A stretch of 64,000 nucleotides of DNA from Limnochorda sp. LNt (lineage in GTDB: Bacteria; Bacillota; Limnochordia; Limnochordales; Geochordaceae). Location: positions 1 through 64,000 of the forward strand of contig NZ_CP141614.1 of assembly GCF_035593265.1 (NCBI RefSeq), written 5' to 3'. Numbering within the stretch: the first letter of the stretch is position 1; every line of letters begins with the position of its first letter. The notes under the pieces are model-generated. The model had not been told where the DNA came from. It ran no database searches and saw nothing but the letters and a program-made list of their open reading frames with translations. Below, in pieces: positions 1,497-9,325 of the stretch. The translations under genes and the position numbers were made by a program.

Positions 1497-1545
1497 TGGC
1501 TTGACAATTGTTTGATAGGGTTTCAGGCGTGGAGGTGTGTGCCAG

Positions 1546-1770
1546 ATGCCCGCCCCCAAGAAACCGCCCGAAAAGCGTCTAGTCAGCTTAAACGTGTCCG
1601 TAACCCCTAAAGTCAGGAGAACACTGTTGGAGCTTGCTCAAATAGGCCAAAAGTCGGTCAGCGAAGTCACAAGGGCTTGCCTCGCCATCGGTATCGCCGC
1701 ACTTTTGGCCGAAGCCCGAAGACTTGCACGGGAAAAGAACGCTGAAGCACGCCTGAGTAACGAGAAATAA
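1546..1770 (+). CDS. Small ribbon-helix-helix-like DNA-binding protein
   Basis: This 74-residue basic protein has a short strand (LVSLNVSVTP) followed by two helices, the layout of Arc/MetJ-type ribbon-helix-helix proteins. ATG 1546 is preferred over GTG 1537, because GGAGG at 1531-1535 is 10 bases from the ATG but abuts the GTG. The upstream ACAATTGT (1504-1511) is a perfect 8-bp palindrome that could be its own operator. It stands just before the replication protein gene, so regulation of replication or copy number is plausible, but this is inference. Confidence 0.6.
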   Translation: MPAPKKPPEKRLVSLNVSVTPKVRRTLLELAQIGQKSVSEVTRACLAIGIAALLAEARRLAREKNAEARLSNEK

Positions 1771-3762: not shown

Positions 3763-3868
3763 AATGATTGCTTGCTACCACAGAGGAGGCGGGGGAAACC
3801 AAAAGTGCTAGATACCGTCAAGCTGAAGCTGTTGGTCGGGAAAGGGATGGAGAGGGGCTACAATGCGT

Positions 3869-4013
3869 GTAACCAATGTAACCGCGGTAACTGGTGTAAC
3901 CAGTGTAACCGCTGTAACCGCGGTTACAGGCGGTTACATTTGGGGTGTAACCGCCCCAAAGCGCGTCATGATGCGGGTTTGGCGGGGCGGTTACAGTGGT
4001 TACACCTGGTTAC
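3869..4013. repeat. Iteron array: GTAACC units, 9-bp period, candidate replication origin or centromere
   Basis: Six direct units start at 3869, 3878, 3887 (variant GTAACT), 3896, 3905 and 3914, an exact 9-bp period. The last direct unit is the left half of the perfect palindrome GTAACCGCGGTTAC (3914-3927). Inverted GGTTAC copies follow at 3922, 3932, 3989, 3998 and 4008, and another direct copy at 3947, giving 12 in all. The array lies directly after the primase-helicase gene, where an iteron origin or operator is expected. The intergenic stretch 3763-4120 holds no convincing gene. Confidence 0.8.
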
Positions 4014-4120
4014 AGGTTCCCGAAGCCCGACCGAGGATGAGCGTTAGCTGCTAGCATGACAGCACAAGCCCAGCGACTTTCTCAGTTATGGACACCGTAA
4101 GAGGTGGTGAAGGGTTTACG

Positions 4121-4675
4121 ATGGGAGCCGGGAAGGGCAGCAAACAGCGAAATGATGCAGGTCTGCGCCGGGTAGGGGGTATCAGCCAGCGCGGTGTCGG
4201 AACCGATTTTTCGGAAGCCATTTTCCCGCTTTTTTCGGGGCGTTTGGCGACTCCTGACGACCAGCGGCTCTTTCACCTTGCTATTCTCCGAGCCGTAGCC
4301 AGCGATCCGAGCTTTTATTTGCACCCCCAAGCCATCACGGAACAGGCAATTCGGGAAGCCCTCAAGCAAGATCCGGAGCTTTCCGCGCTGTTTCAGGACC
4401 CGAACCAACCTAAATCCGGCCCCGCCACGGTTGAGGCATTTATCAAGGCGCGTGTGGACGTGGGTAATCCGAAATACCGGGTGGCTATCAAGGACCTCTA
4501 CGCAGCGTACATGGAGTTTTGTGCTAGCAAGCGCATGGTCCCCCGCCCGCGCCGGATATTCGGACACGATCTCCGCACCATCCTGGGTGACATCAAGAAG
4601 ACGCGCCCCGGCCCCAAGAAAGGAAAGCGCCCCGAGTTTTACGTCGGGATCCGCCTTCGCCCCCGTAGCGACTAA
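4121..4675 (+). CDS. Detached primase C-terminal winged-helix-like protein
   Basis: This protein has 184 residues. Its C-terminal half (LYAAYMEFC, then an FGHDLRTI segment, then EFYVGIRLR) follows the pattern of the winged-helix domain at the end of P4/D5-type phage primases (Y-x-x-[FW]C ... F ... L ... GIRL). Here it is a separate protein, while the primase-polymerase and helicase are encoded upstream. ATG 4121 is chosen over ATG 4088, because GAGGTGGTGAAGGG lies just upstream of it and nothing comparable precedes 4088. It may act as an origin- or helicase-binding accessory protein. The assignment is by pattern only. Confidence 0.55.
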   Translation: MGAGKGSKQRNDAGLRRVGGISQRGVGTDFSEAIFPLFSGRLATPDDQRLFHLAILRAVASDPSFYLHPQAITEQAIREALKQDPELSALFQDPNQPKSGPATVEAFIKARVDVGNPKYRVAIKDLYAAYMEFCASKRMVPRPRRIFGHDLRTILGDIKKTRPGPKKGKRPEFYVGIRLRPRSD

Positions 4676-5941: not shown

Positions 5942-6102
5942 CTTCTCCACCTCCTGCCCGACCAATTCTCGTATCTTGGCCAAGTGCCTGCTGCGTCCCC
6001 ATGCCTGCGACACCACAGCGCGAGCCTGGGAGGGCAGGGAGGGCACGACGGCCCCGAAGACGAAACTGCACGGTGCAAGGCCGTGGAGAGGAGGCCGGGG
6101 AA

Positions 6103-6597
6103 GTGCATAGACCGTCCGCATCGTTGGCTGTGAGCGCACTCATTGTGGTTGCCGTGGCGGGCGTGGCAGTTTCGCAGGGCGTGGGTGAGTTCTTGAAGCC
6201 GGAGACTTCACAGCGATTCGGCTTTTACGACGGCAATAGAATCGCAGCCCAAAGCCAGGCACTGCGGCTTGCTTACTACGCAGGAGCCTACGACGCTCTG
6301 AAGGCTGTGGCGTGGGAGCAGGTTACGATTGCGAACAGCGTCATTCCGCCCACGGCAGCCAACATGACGTTGGCCGAGTGGGCAGAAGCAGATACGTCAA
6401 CGAGGCTCAGGATTGCAGGTGGCGTTGCTGTTTCCCGGCTAACCGCGGCCCTGCTTTTTATTCCACAGGAAACAACGCTAGGGCAGATCGCTGATGTAGT
6501 CGATGCCTACATTGCCTCTCACCCCACCGAGCGCCATAACAACGCTGCGCTCCTCCTGTGGAGGGCACTTGCAGAAGCCACCTTTAAATGGAGATAA
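6103..6597 (+). CDS. Signal-anchored Rap1a/Tai-like protein
   Basis: This protein has 164 residues starting at GTG 6103, with GGAGG 8 bases upstream. Residues about 7-25 are a hydrophobic signal or anchor. The rest is helical: a G-x-Y-x-A region, then 'FIPQETTLGQIADVVDAYI' and 'SHPTERHNNAALLLWRAL', which follows the pattern of the Rap1a/Tai immunity-protein domain (P-x-x-T-x-x-Q ... V-x-x-Y-[IL] ... HP ... AL). The usual disulphide cysteines are missing. In other bacteria such proteins neutralise secreted amidases or peptidases. Here it sits in a mobile element with no obvious toxin in view, so its role is open. Confidence 0.5.
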   Translation: MHRPSASLAVSALIVVAVAGVAVSQGVGEFLKPETSQRFGFYDGNRIAAQSQALRLAYYAGAYDALKAVAWEQVTIANSVIPPTAANMTLAEWAEADTSTRLRIAGGVAVSRLTAALLFIPQETTLGQIADVVDAYIASHPTERHNNAALLLWRALAEATFKWR

Positions 6598-7411: not shown

Positions 7412-7642
7412 ATGCCTGACGAAAAGGCTGCCGAGGATGTCGTTCTCTCCATTCGTGTTCCGAAAGAACTTCGGCGCCGAGTGAAGGCGCAGGCCGCCGT
7501 GCTGGACCTTACGGTTCAGGAGGTGATCATCTCGCTGCTAGAAAACTGGCTCGATAAGGTGGAAGCCTCGCAGGGGCCTGCGGAGCAGTCCGCCCGCGGG
7601 GCGAGCCGTGGCAGACAGAAGCCTGGCGCCACCCGAGCCTGA
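7412..7642 (+). CDS. Ribbon-helix-helix (Arc/CopG-like) regulator
   Basis: This 76-residue protein has an N-terminal strand VVLSIRVPKELRRRVK, then helix, turn and helix (LDLTVQEVIISLLENWL), the standard ribbon-helix-helix pattern, followed by a polar disordered tail. Start ATG 7412 has AGGGAGG upstream. It lies immediately before the integrase gene in the same direction, so it could control excision or integration, or its own promoter with the tandem octamer. A toxin partner is not visible. Confidence 0.75.
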   Translation: MPDEKAAEDVVLSIRVPKELRRRVKAQAAVLDLTVQEVIISLLENWLDKVEASQGPAEQSARGASRGRQKPGATRA

Positions 7643-7853
7643 CGCCGGGTATGCGAATGACGAGACCGCGCATCAGCCGAAACTGCGTCAGTGAAGCGGC
7701 CTCTTCTAGCCTACCCAACCCACGTCCCAACCTTCTACGAGTGGCGCGCTTGCCAGCGGGCTGGTCAAAACGCCTGCGACCCCGTTGGTAAAGGTGCCAA
7801 CGAGAAGGAAGGGGCAGAGTCGGAAGCCCATAGCAGGGAGGGGTCAGGCGTCT

Positions 7854-9071
7854 ATGGGCATCTCCCGAACCAAAGACGGGCGGTTTCGGGTCGTTGTGTT
7901 TATGGGCCGGGACCCGGCCACCGGAAAGAAGCTCTTCCACGACACGATCTGCGATACCGAGCGGGAGGCGAAAGCGAAGGAGAAGGAGTGGGAACAGGAG
8001 AAGGCGCAAAAGCGATTCGTCGCTCCGTCCGAGCGGCTGACGGTCAAGGAGTTTCTGGAGCTTTGGCTGAAGAACGACGCTCCGAACACGACAAAGCCCC
8101 GCACCTTGAAGCGATACAAAGAGCTGGTCAACCTGCATATCACCCCCCGACTCGGCGCCGTTCGGCTCGACCTCCTCTCGCCCCAACACGTCAAGCGTCT
8201 GCTGGCCGAGAAGCGAGAGGAAGGGCTGTCAGCCCGAACCTGCCTGCACATCTACCGGGTGCTCCATCGGGCGCTCAATTCGGCGCTGGAGGACGGGCGG
8301 ATAAGCCAAAACGTCTGCGACCGAGTGCGGCCACCGAAGGTAGATGAGAAGCTGCCCGACGGTCTATCGACCGAACAGGTTGATGCTCTGTTACGCGCGG
8401 CTCGGTACATCGAGGGCGAGAGGTTGCCAGACGGCACTAGGGTACAGATACCGAACCCGCTCTACCCGCTCTACCTTACGGCTGTCCACACTGGAATGCG
8501 GCTGGGTGAACTCCTGGGCCTGCGCTGGGCAGACGTGGACCTCGATGTCGGAGTAGCGGTAGTGCAGCAGGCCCTTGTGAAAGCGGGAAGGCAACCCGTC
8601 TTCGACACACCGAAGAACCGGAAACCCCGTGTGGTCCCCCTCTCCCCGGAGGTGATCGAGGCGCTGCGTCAGCTACGGATCGACCAGGAGATTGCCAGGG
8701 CCAATTACTCGCAGCGGGGCAAGCAGTACGGCGCCTTCCCAGGCCACGAGGAGCACGGCCCGCTAGTCTTCTGCCAGGAGAACGGATGGCCGCTCGAACC
8801 AGGCAACCTGACGCAGCGCAACTTCAAGGAATTGCTGAAGAAGGCCGGGCTGCCGAGAGACATCCGCTTTCATGACCTCCGGCACACCTTCGTCTCCCGA
8901 GCTTTGCAGGCAGGGGCAAACCCTCGGGCCGTTAGTGAGATCGTCGGCCACTACGACCCAGGCTTCACGCTGAAGCGGTACGCCCACGCGTTGCCAGAGG
9001 ATACAAGGGAAGCCGTCCGGCGTCTCTCGCAACACCTGCGCCGGACGGCCCCCGAACGGACAGAGGGTTGA
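7854..9071 (+). CDS. int: Tyrosine recombinase (phage-type integrase)
   Basis: This 405-residue site-specific recombinase has a short N-terminal arm-binding domain (AP2/DRBD-like, GISRTKDGRFRVVVFMG), a SAM-like core-binding domain (SERLTVKEFLELWLK onward), and a catalytic domain with Arg in HTGMRLGELLGLRW, Lys in TPKNRKPRVVPL, the HDLRHTF box, a GHYDPG histidine and the Tyr nucleophile in LKRYAHA. All catalytic residues are present, so it should be active. ATG 7854 with GGGAGGGG 10 bases upstream is preferred to earlier GTG starts. It faces tRNA-Arg, its probable target, as expected for phages and ICEs of Bacillota. Confidence 0.95.
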   Translation: MGISRTKDGRFRVVVFMGRDPATGKKLFHDTICDTEREAKAKEKEWEQEKAQKRFVAPSERLTVKEFLELWLKNDAPNTTKPRTLKRYKELVNLHITPRLGAVRLDLLSPQHVKRLLAEKREEGLSARTCLHIYRVLHRALNSALEDGRISQNVCDRVRPPKVDEKLPDGLSTEQVDALLRAARYIEGERLPDGTRVQIPNPLYPLYLTAVHTGMRLGELLGLRWADVDLDVGVAVVQQALVKAGRQPVFDTPKNRKPRVVPLSPEVIEALRQLRIDQEIARANYSQRGKQYGAFPGHEEHGPLVFCQENGWPLEPGNLTQRNFKELLKKAGLPRDIRFHDLRHTFVSRALQAGANPRAVSEIVGHYDPGFTLKRYAHALPEDTREAVRRLSQHLRRTAPERTEG

Positions 9072-9248: not shown

Positions 9249-9325
9249 TGGTGGCCCCGAGAGGACTCGAACCTCCGACACGCGGTTTAGGAAACCGCTG
9301 CTCTATCCGCCTGAGCTACGGGGCC
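9249..9325 (-). tRNA. tRNA-Arg (anticodon CCT), likely integration site
   Basis: The complement folds as a full cloverleaf: acceptor GGCCCCG/CGGGGCC, D stem GCTC/GAGC, anticodon stem GCGGT/ACCGC with loop TTCCTAA (anticodon CCT, reads AGG), T arm with TTCGAGT, discriminator A and encoded CCA. Its 3' end lies toward the integrase, so the element probably integrated there and restored the tRNA end. The chromosome to the right has normal high GC. Confidence 0.95.

Follow-up and report, generated by a model that had tools for sequence, protein, structure and literature searches.

The 640-aa primase-helicase gene of a mobile element integrated at a tRNA gene is followed by an array of 11 TGTAACC/GGTTACA sites, and this array is likely to be the cis replication origin (the iteron region) of the element, bound by the C-terminal winged helix of the primase-helicase itself. 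The array, its position after the gene, the domain make-up of the encoded protein and the recurrence of arrays at the 3' ends of related helicase genes are direct observations. The reading as an origin draws on the fact that the array is far above chance, unique in the genome and part of an element with its own integrase, on the recurrence of 3'-end arrays both in loci selected by protein and in loci selected by DNA, on precedents that share the layout (PICI, SCCmec Cch2 and pRN1, together with P4 crr), and on a winged helix modelled at high confidence. According to the mechanism that we propose, the primase-helicase would recognise TGTAACC via its C-terminal winged helix, copies of it would assemble on the opposed iteron sets and load as ring helicases, the loaded rings would open DNA nearby, and the fused Prim-Pol domain would make the primers. 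An earlier note on this DNA had already proposed a candidate origin next to the Prim-Pol/helicase, a proposal now supported by the 3'-end arrays at related replication genes.

The analysis concerned a window of 64,000 nucleotides, bases 1-64000 of a genome that consists of a 3.02 Mb single contig. As read from the sequence, the 11 sites (6 rightward, 5 leftward) lie within 147 bp, at 3868-4014, and all 11 carry the full 7-mer TGTAACC/GGTTACA: GTAACC starts on the plus strand at 3869, 3878, 3896, 3905, 3914 and 3947, and GGTTAC, for the minus strand, at 3922, 3932, 3989, 3998 and 4008. Along the array there follow one another the forward set, the palindrome, two inverted copies, one forward copy and three opposed copies, and the features are collected in the table below. 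The earlier note had described six GTAACC units at a strict 9-bp period, meeting a perfect 14-bp palindrome and continuing as inverted copies. The spacing of the six units was confirmed, but only five of them are exact, the third (3887) reading GTAACT; the strict period holds for the forward set and is lost in the inverted copies, where the steps are 10 bp (3922, 3932) or 9 and 10 bp (3989, 3998, 4008); the palindrome is indeed perfect but 16 bp long; and the inverted copies after it are present as five GGTTACA sites at 3922-4014. The inverted pair further downstream holds one forward iteron in its left arm and one inverted iteron in its right arm, and the single-strand fold of 3860-4020 reaches a z of -6.9, mostly due to the inverted iterons.

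Table. Coordinates of the array and of the neighbouring features of the element (positions of the window).
Feature	Position	Strand	Remarks
77-aa protein	1537..1770	+	upstream of helicase gene; weak Arc-like (ribbon-helix-helix) match, E 0.0055
Replication protein, 640 aa	1840..3762	+	Prim-Pol, RepA-like ring helicase (AAA_25), C-terminal winged helix; proposed origin binder
V-T-x reading frame, 63 aa	3863..4054	+	across the array; probably no gene here
Forward iteron set	3868..3919	+	six units spaced exactly 9 bp, TGTAACC with third unit GTAACT
Perfect 16-bp palindrome	3913..3928		TGTAACCGCGGTTACA; junction of forward and inverted sites; read from sequence
Two inverted iterons	3922..3938	-	10 bp apart (3922, 3932)
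Inverted pair	3946..3995		12-bp arms 3946-3957 and 3984-3995, 12/12 bp paired
Opposed set	3989..4014	-	three inverted iterons at 9 and 10 bp (3989, 3998, 4008)
195-aa protein	4088..4675	+	RFX/Pox_D5-like C-terminal winged helix; rival binder or regulator
76-aa ribbon-helix-helix protein	7412..7642	+	adjoins the integrase
Tyrosine integrase of the element	7785..9071	+	
Right attachment repeat, 45 bp	9249..9293		3' part of tRNA-Arg(CCT); exact copy at contig 3012019-3012063

A chance origin of the array was rejected, since it packs 11 TGTAACC sites into 150 bp, whereas none of 100 Markov-shuffled windows exceeded 2. For other 6-mers elsewhere in the window the best value is 5 per 150 bp, and any 6-mer in 20 shuffles reaches up to 6. 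In the 3.02 Mb genome, GTAACCNNNGTAACC occurs at 4 places, all of them in this array, and the mirrored version of the paired pattern has 0 occurrences across the same 3.02 Mb. The array lies between the 640-aa replication gene and the 195-aa gene, beginning 105 bp past the stop of the helicase gene and ending 73 bp ahead of ATG 4088, in an intergenic stretch with a GC content of 53-58% (vs 69% for the window). The lowest-GC 40 bp (45%) start at 3794, ahead of the array, and the spacer between the iteron sets is GC-rich.

The element that hosts the array measures about 16.6 kb, spans the contig start and is bounded by exact 45-bp tRNA-Arg repeats; the integrase beside the tRNA gene and the direct repeat of the tRNA 3' part identify it as a tRNA-integrated element. 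It looks phage-derived from its gene content: one large protein combines a LysM domain with matches to transglycosylase/endolysin, another protein gives a weak tail-fibre match, and a transposase-like gene stands near the left end (L202 13249-14805, contig 3012588-3014144; DDE match at E 0.019, below the cut-off). No capsid or terminase gene was seen among those element proteins scanned, which were a subset. Another ORF of 198 aa (6001-6597 of the window) gave a Rap1a immunity-protein match barely over the cut-off (28.7 vs 27.7 bits) and could, judging from this match, possibly be a cargo gene.

The 640-aa protein matches Prim-Pol (1.5e-30) and AAA_25 (3e-27) in Pfam, with weak C-terminal helix-turn-helix matches. 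The structure model of residues 300-640, built with 41 sequences (mean pLDDT 89.7), presents a RecA-type core and, C-terminal to it, a winged helix of three helices. Compared with RSF1010 RepA, the helicase core is related both in sequence (5.2e-15) and in fold (Z 22.2, rmsd 2.9, 218 aligned residues), which places it among the RepA-type hexameric helicases of the RSF1010 RepA family, and the protein is therefore not of the SF3 helicase type of P4. The fold comparison took in the helicase core only and says little on the winged helix; with this query, no P4 or RFX structure stood among the fold matches listed. RSF1010 has separate primase and initiator proteins and iterons of about 20 bp, whereas primase, helicase and winged helix are fused in the window. 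Likewise, the array departs from the classical iteron plasmids, with their Rep protein and iterons of 20-22 bp, by its 7-bp unit and 9-bp period.

In P4 crr, PICI/SaPI, SCCmec Cch2 and pRN1, the primase-helicase gene is immediately followed by a cis region, and by analogy the array of the window would seem to resemble these systems. The alpha protein of P4 is an SF3-type helicase. Like the window, P4 has short iterons of both orientations just past the end of its primase-helicase gene (crr, NC_001609), the first two 9 bp apart and the others at 10, 11 and 18 bp, but its iteron TGTTCACC resembles TGTAACC without being the same, it has a second, distant ori, and its helicase differs from the AAA_25 domain with RSF1010 RepA fold found here; identity with the P4 replicon was rejected on the basis of helicase type and iteron. 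For PICI, the account in PMC6092414 describes a pri-rep-ori unit tested on a plasmid, with the ori immediately 3' of rep and opposed iteron sets (the same arrangement as in the window, where the array stands 105 bp past the stop); in PICI/SaPI, however, these sets flank an AT-rich stretch in place of the GC-rich spacer of the window, and the primase, helicase and binder belong to a different helicase type. The C-terminal domain of SCCmec Cch2 is described as binding iterons downstream of its gene (PMC7581432), which again corresponds to the window, but these iterons are AAGTG, three in 23 bp, and the helicase is MCM-like with a separate polymerase/primase. On the Sulfolobus plasmid pRN1, a small regulator gene and a Prim-Pol helicase gene precede a required structured region, as reported in PMC4234260; that region is a 100-nt stem-loop with no iteron array and the helicase is SF3. 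The order of genes may recur in the window, where the 77-aa ORF upstream of the Prim-Pol gene has its weak Arc-like match (E 0.0055). The satellite presented in PMC7145576 uses a different, RepA_N-type system. The open-access literature searched yielded no account of GTAACC iterons next to a primase gene, which is no proof of their being unpublished.

Relatives of the helicase are encoded in 171 viral stretches, of which the best 80 were kept and 79 scored (L323 had no stop codon in its locus). An array was called when the commonest 7-mer, counted on both strands from -450 to +750 around the stop codon, exceeded the maximum of 40 shuffles by at least 2. By this test, 27 of the 79 loci present an array at the 3' end of the helicase gene and 52 have none at the threshold used, as compared with 0/73 upstream and 0/67 distal control regions (the remaining ones being too short for scoring). 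All 27 arrays hold both orientations; 14 lie past the stop, 9 in the coding end and 4 straddle the stop. The objection foreseen in the earlier note, that arrays might be missing from related elements with the same replication gene, was thereby answered, for arrays of any motif. Its more specific suggestion, GTAACC arrays downstream of Prim-Pol/RepA genes in relatives, was borne out at the homologues L138, L169, L236 and L237 (L138 and L169 had been found via the motif), but elsewhere the motif is frequently another: motifs vary widely among the arrays of helicase relatives, and GTAACC was rejected as a marker of the helicase family. Within the same phylum, 35 of 398 genomes gave a helicase match and 20 regions were taken for analysis. 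Among these, L236 and L237 hold the GTAACC-type arrays named above; other motifs stand close to the stop in L235, L239 and L240, and about 600 bp past it in L238; the array signal is small or absent in L234, L242, L243 and L253; eight short RepA helicases with a traced gene showed no standout array; and no gene was traced in L246 and L252. A comparable element in a genome of the same family (G002; L201 8839-9120) presents, in the same order, a Prim-Pol/DUF927 protein, an array with TGTCCCGG sites of either orientation, a protein related to the 195-aa one and an integrase.

The spacing of sites was taken from the 27 protein-selected arrays, since in GTAACC-selected arrays it is biased toward 9 by the search pattern. 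Among their 125 same-strand gaps of at most 20 bp, 61 are of 9 bp and 102 of 8-11 bp; gaps of 9 bp account for 27 of 45 inside genes and for 34 of 80 past stops, where 66 of 80 measure 8-11 bp. The 9-bp period, which the earlier note had held to be unusual, is thus the modal one in this class and is also found between annotated P4 crr iterons. Because 9 bp is modal outside genes too, alongside 8 and 10 bp, a coding origin of the period was rejected and we infer that the bound protein, not the genetic code, sets the spacing of iterons. The Val-Thr-x (V-T-x) repeat that the earlier note had read in one frame, from a period that is a multiple of 3, does exist as a 63-aa ORF; coding nevertheless does not account for the period, the 8- and 10-bp gaps outside genes breaking the tripeptide frame.

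Arrays were also selected by DNA, using a two-sided pattern of two sites, 60-90 bp and two inverted sites, which matches 39 viral stretches and 37 genome stretches. Control patterns matched 2 viral stretches (mirror order), 8 (another scramble) and 52 (the related motif GTCACC), and the scrambles may include genuine arrays of other motifs. An initial scan had given at least 29 two-sided arrays among the 120 viral stretches listed, the remaining 91 being one-sided (mostly repeat-coding genes by their spacing) or below threshold. The resulting 101 loci combine these 29, among the matches listed, with the 39 viral (4 shared with the 29) and 37 genome stretches; loci from one scan are not independent, and 98 of the 101 arrays are distinct. 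The nearest ORF of at least 300 aa turns its 3' end toward the array in 64 loci, its 5' end in 11 and covers the array in 3, while 23 have no such ORF within 1 kb. More than half (52/101) fall in three helicase clusters, named from scans of array-adjacent ORFs and representatives: VapE-like (21), DUF927 with a Cch helix-turn-helix (16) and DUF5906/D5 (15). In 45 of 50 genes of these clusters the array edge lies at most 100 bp from the stop, and in 14 of the 50 a GTAACC provides the TAA stop codon. Two of the loci found in this way, L138 (6.5e-40) and L169 (1.3e-19), encode helicases related to that of the window. Profile comparison of the clusters gave a probability of 6.8% for VapE-like vs D5 and 0.7% for Cch vs D5, and 99.4% for D5 vs the DUF5906 cluster, as expected from shared members; with no clear link in these comparisons, the idea of one winged-helix family behind all GTAACC arrays was rejected. 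One-sided loci, e.g., L046, L076 and L103, hold long runs of GTAACC on a single strand, spaced by multiples of 9 bp; these runs probably encode Val-Thr-x repeats of large phage proteins, a source of the pattern that is coding and independent.

Concerning the protein that would bind TGTAACC, we favour the winged helix of the helicase because arrays follow the helicase family where no RFX/D5-type protein is detected, because the C-terminal domain of SCCmec Cch2 is reported to bind its iterons (PMC7581432), and because the similarity of motifs tracks winged-helix identity. The co-variation set comprised 35 loci minus L324, L330 and L332, which had no aligned winged helix, and eight of its motifs were hand-assigned. 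In Mantel comparisons, motif similarity correlated with winged-helix identity (r 0.277, p 0.0002, n=32) as against r 0.008 for the helicase core; without the motif-selected L138 and L169 the values were 0.265 vs 0.211, and with automatic motifs only (n=23) 0.134 vs 0.097. The co-variation therefore appears modest, and not clearly above that of the core once the two motif-selected loci are left out. In the recognition helix, lysine accompanies ACC-type motifs in 11 of 14 cases and arginine in 2 of 10 (Fisher p 0.011, or 0.030 without L138 and L169, in a test chosen after looking).

The array could also be an origin whose main binder is the 195-aa RFX/P4-like winged-helix protein, either as a partner of the initiator or as a copy-number regulator competing for the iterons, which we regard as rather unlikely, but as a serious competitor all the same. 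P4 has a small regulator, Cnr, which acts on the alpha protein, and a Cnr-like regulatory role of the 195-aa protein is possible by analogy. Its RFX_DNA_binding and Pox_D5 matches are below the cut-off, but its relative in G002, the only one besides the genome itself among 60 relatives, passes the RFX cut-off (28.1 vs 27 bits) and likewise sits between an array-bearing primase gene and an integrase gene; in L170 a domain of the same type stops 3 bp short of the GTAACC array, the sequence GTAACC agrees with GTNRCC, given in PMC5752003 as the RFX half site, and the P4 origin-binding domain is described as resembling RFX1 (PMC10516667). On the other hand, the G002 relative accompanies another motif, TGTCCCGG; L138 shares the motif of the window, and its only other downstream ORF of at least 80 aa (202 aa) matches HicB/CopG instead; and the domain profile found no member in the helicase relatives L255-L334, although 27 of 79 have arrays, with an ORF filter that also missed the window's own copy. 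Relatives of the 195-aa protein were found neither in viral contigs, plasmids and phages nor, by sequence, in the PDB, and its AlphaFold2 model (pLDDT 42) was unusable. An operator or partition site for a ribbon-helix-helix protein, or a control region of the 195-aa gene, would agree with the ribbon-helix-helix matches of two small proteins of the element and with the distance of 73 bp to ATG 4088, but is improbable given that related arrays lie inside the helicase coding end (9/27) or within 100 bp of the stop (45/50), whatever the position of the next gene.

Two further explanations do without a replication role for the array. It might be mainly a coding repeat, translated as a V-T-x peptide or as the tail of the helicase: a possible ribosome-binding site (GGAGAGG) precedes ATG 3863, the helicase frame has no further stop between its TGA and 4047, and in several relatives the array is in frame within the helicase tail (V-T-x in L169 and L236, S-I-H and V-H-P in L239, T-G-D in L306), unlike that of the window, which sits past the stop codon. 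This is extremely unlikely, since about half of the sites are inverted, 8- and 10-bp gaps also occur in arrays past the stop, and the open helicase frame is a weak sign, two of three frames of such an array being open by construction; nothing but the GGAGAGG backs a peptide, and the 63-aa ORF has no Pfam or PHROG match. Alternatively, the array would be a dispersed repeat like those of Bacteroidales, which account for 17 of the 37 genome stretches matched by the two-sided pattern, some genomes with several each, and whose neighbours scanned at eight loci included no replication gene but housekeeping or unknown genes (enolase, beta-galactosidase, CobD and similar). These loci contradict GTAACC as a sure sign of replication genes, an idea that was rejected. 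For the window, however, a dispersed repeat is very improbable: the array is single-copy in this genome and within the replication module, and viral arrays adjoin replication genes. The Bacteroidales loci themselves (L128-L130, L134, L136, L137, L142, L144, L146-L148, L150, L151, L154, L155, L157 and L163) present opposed GTAACC arrays, several with AT-rich centres.

Beyond the origin proposed for this element, the wider survey, with its arrays in coding tails and its changing motif, is more interesting than the single array. Tentatively, there may be one replicator design across unrelated mobile-element helicases, in which iterons of about 9 bp, frequently TGTNACC-like, stand at the 3' end of the initiator gene, move over time into its coding tail, where they read as tripeptide repeats, and out again, and have a motif that co-evolves with the C-terminal winged helix. 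The modal spacing of 9 and 8 bp is close to 8.75 bp, which is five sixths of a 10.5-bp turn and the value to expect if successive subunits of a hexamer, 60 degrees apart, took one site each; the forward set of the window counts six units. The survey suggests a simple rule for finding mobile-element origins, namely to inspect the final bases of the primase-helicase gene and the DNA immediately beyond, and suggests to annotators that V-T-x and similar tripeptide tails on phage helicases are translated origin DNA. It also extends to RepA-type helicases the layout seen in P4, PICI and SCC, and offers natural winged helix/iteron pairs from which a recognition code could be read. In L294, AAGTGTC iterons 9-10 bp apart surround the helicase stop and resemble the AAGTG iterons reported for SCCmec Cch2.
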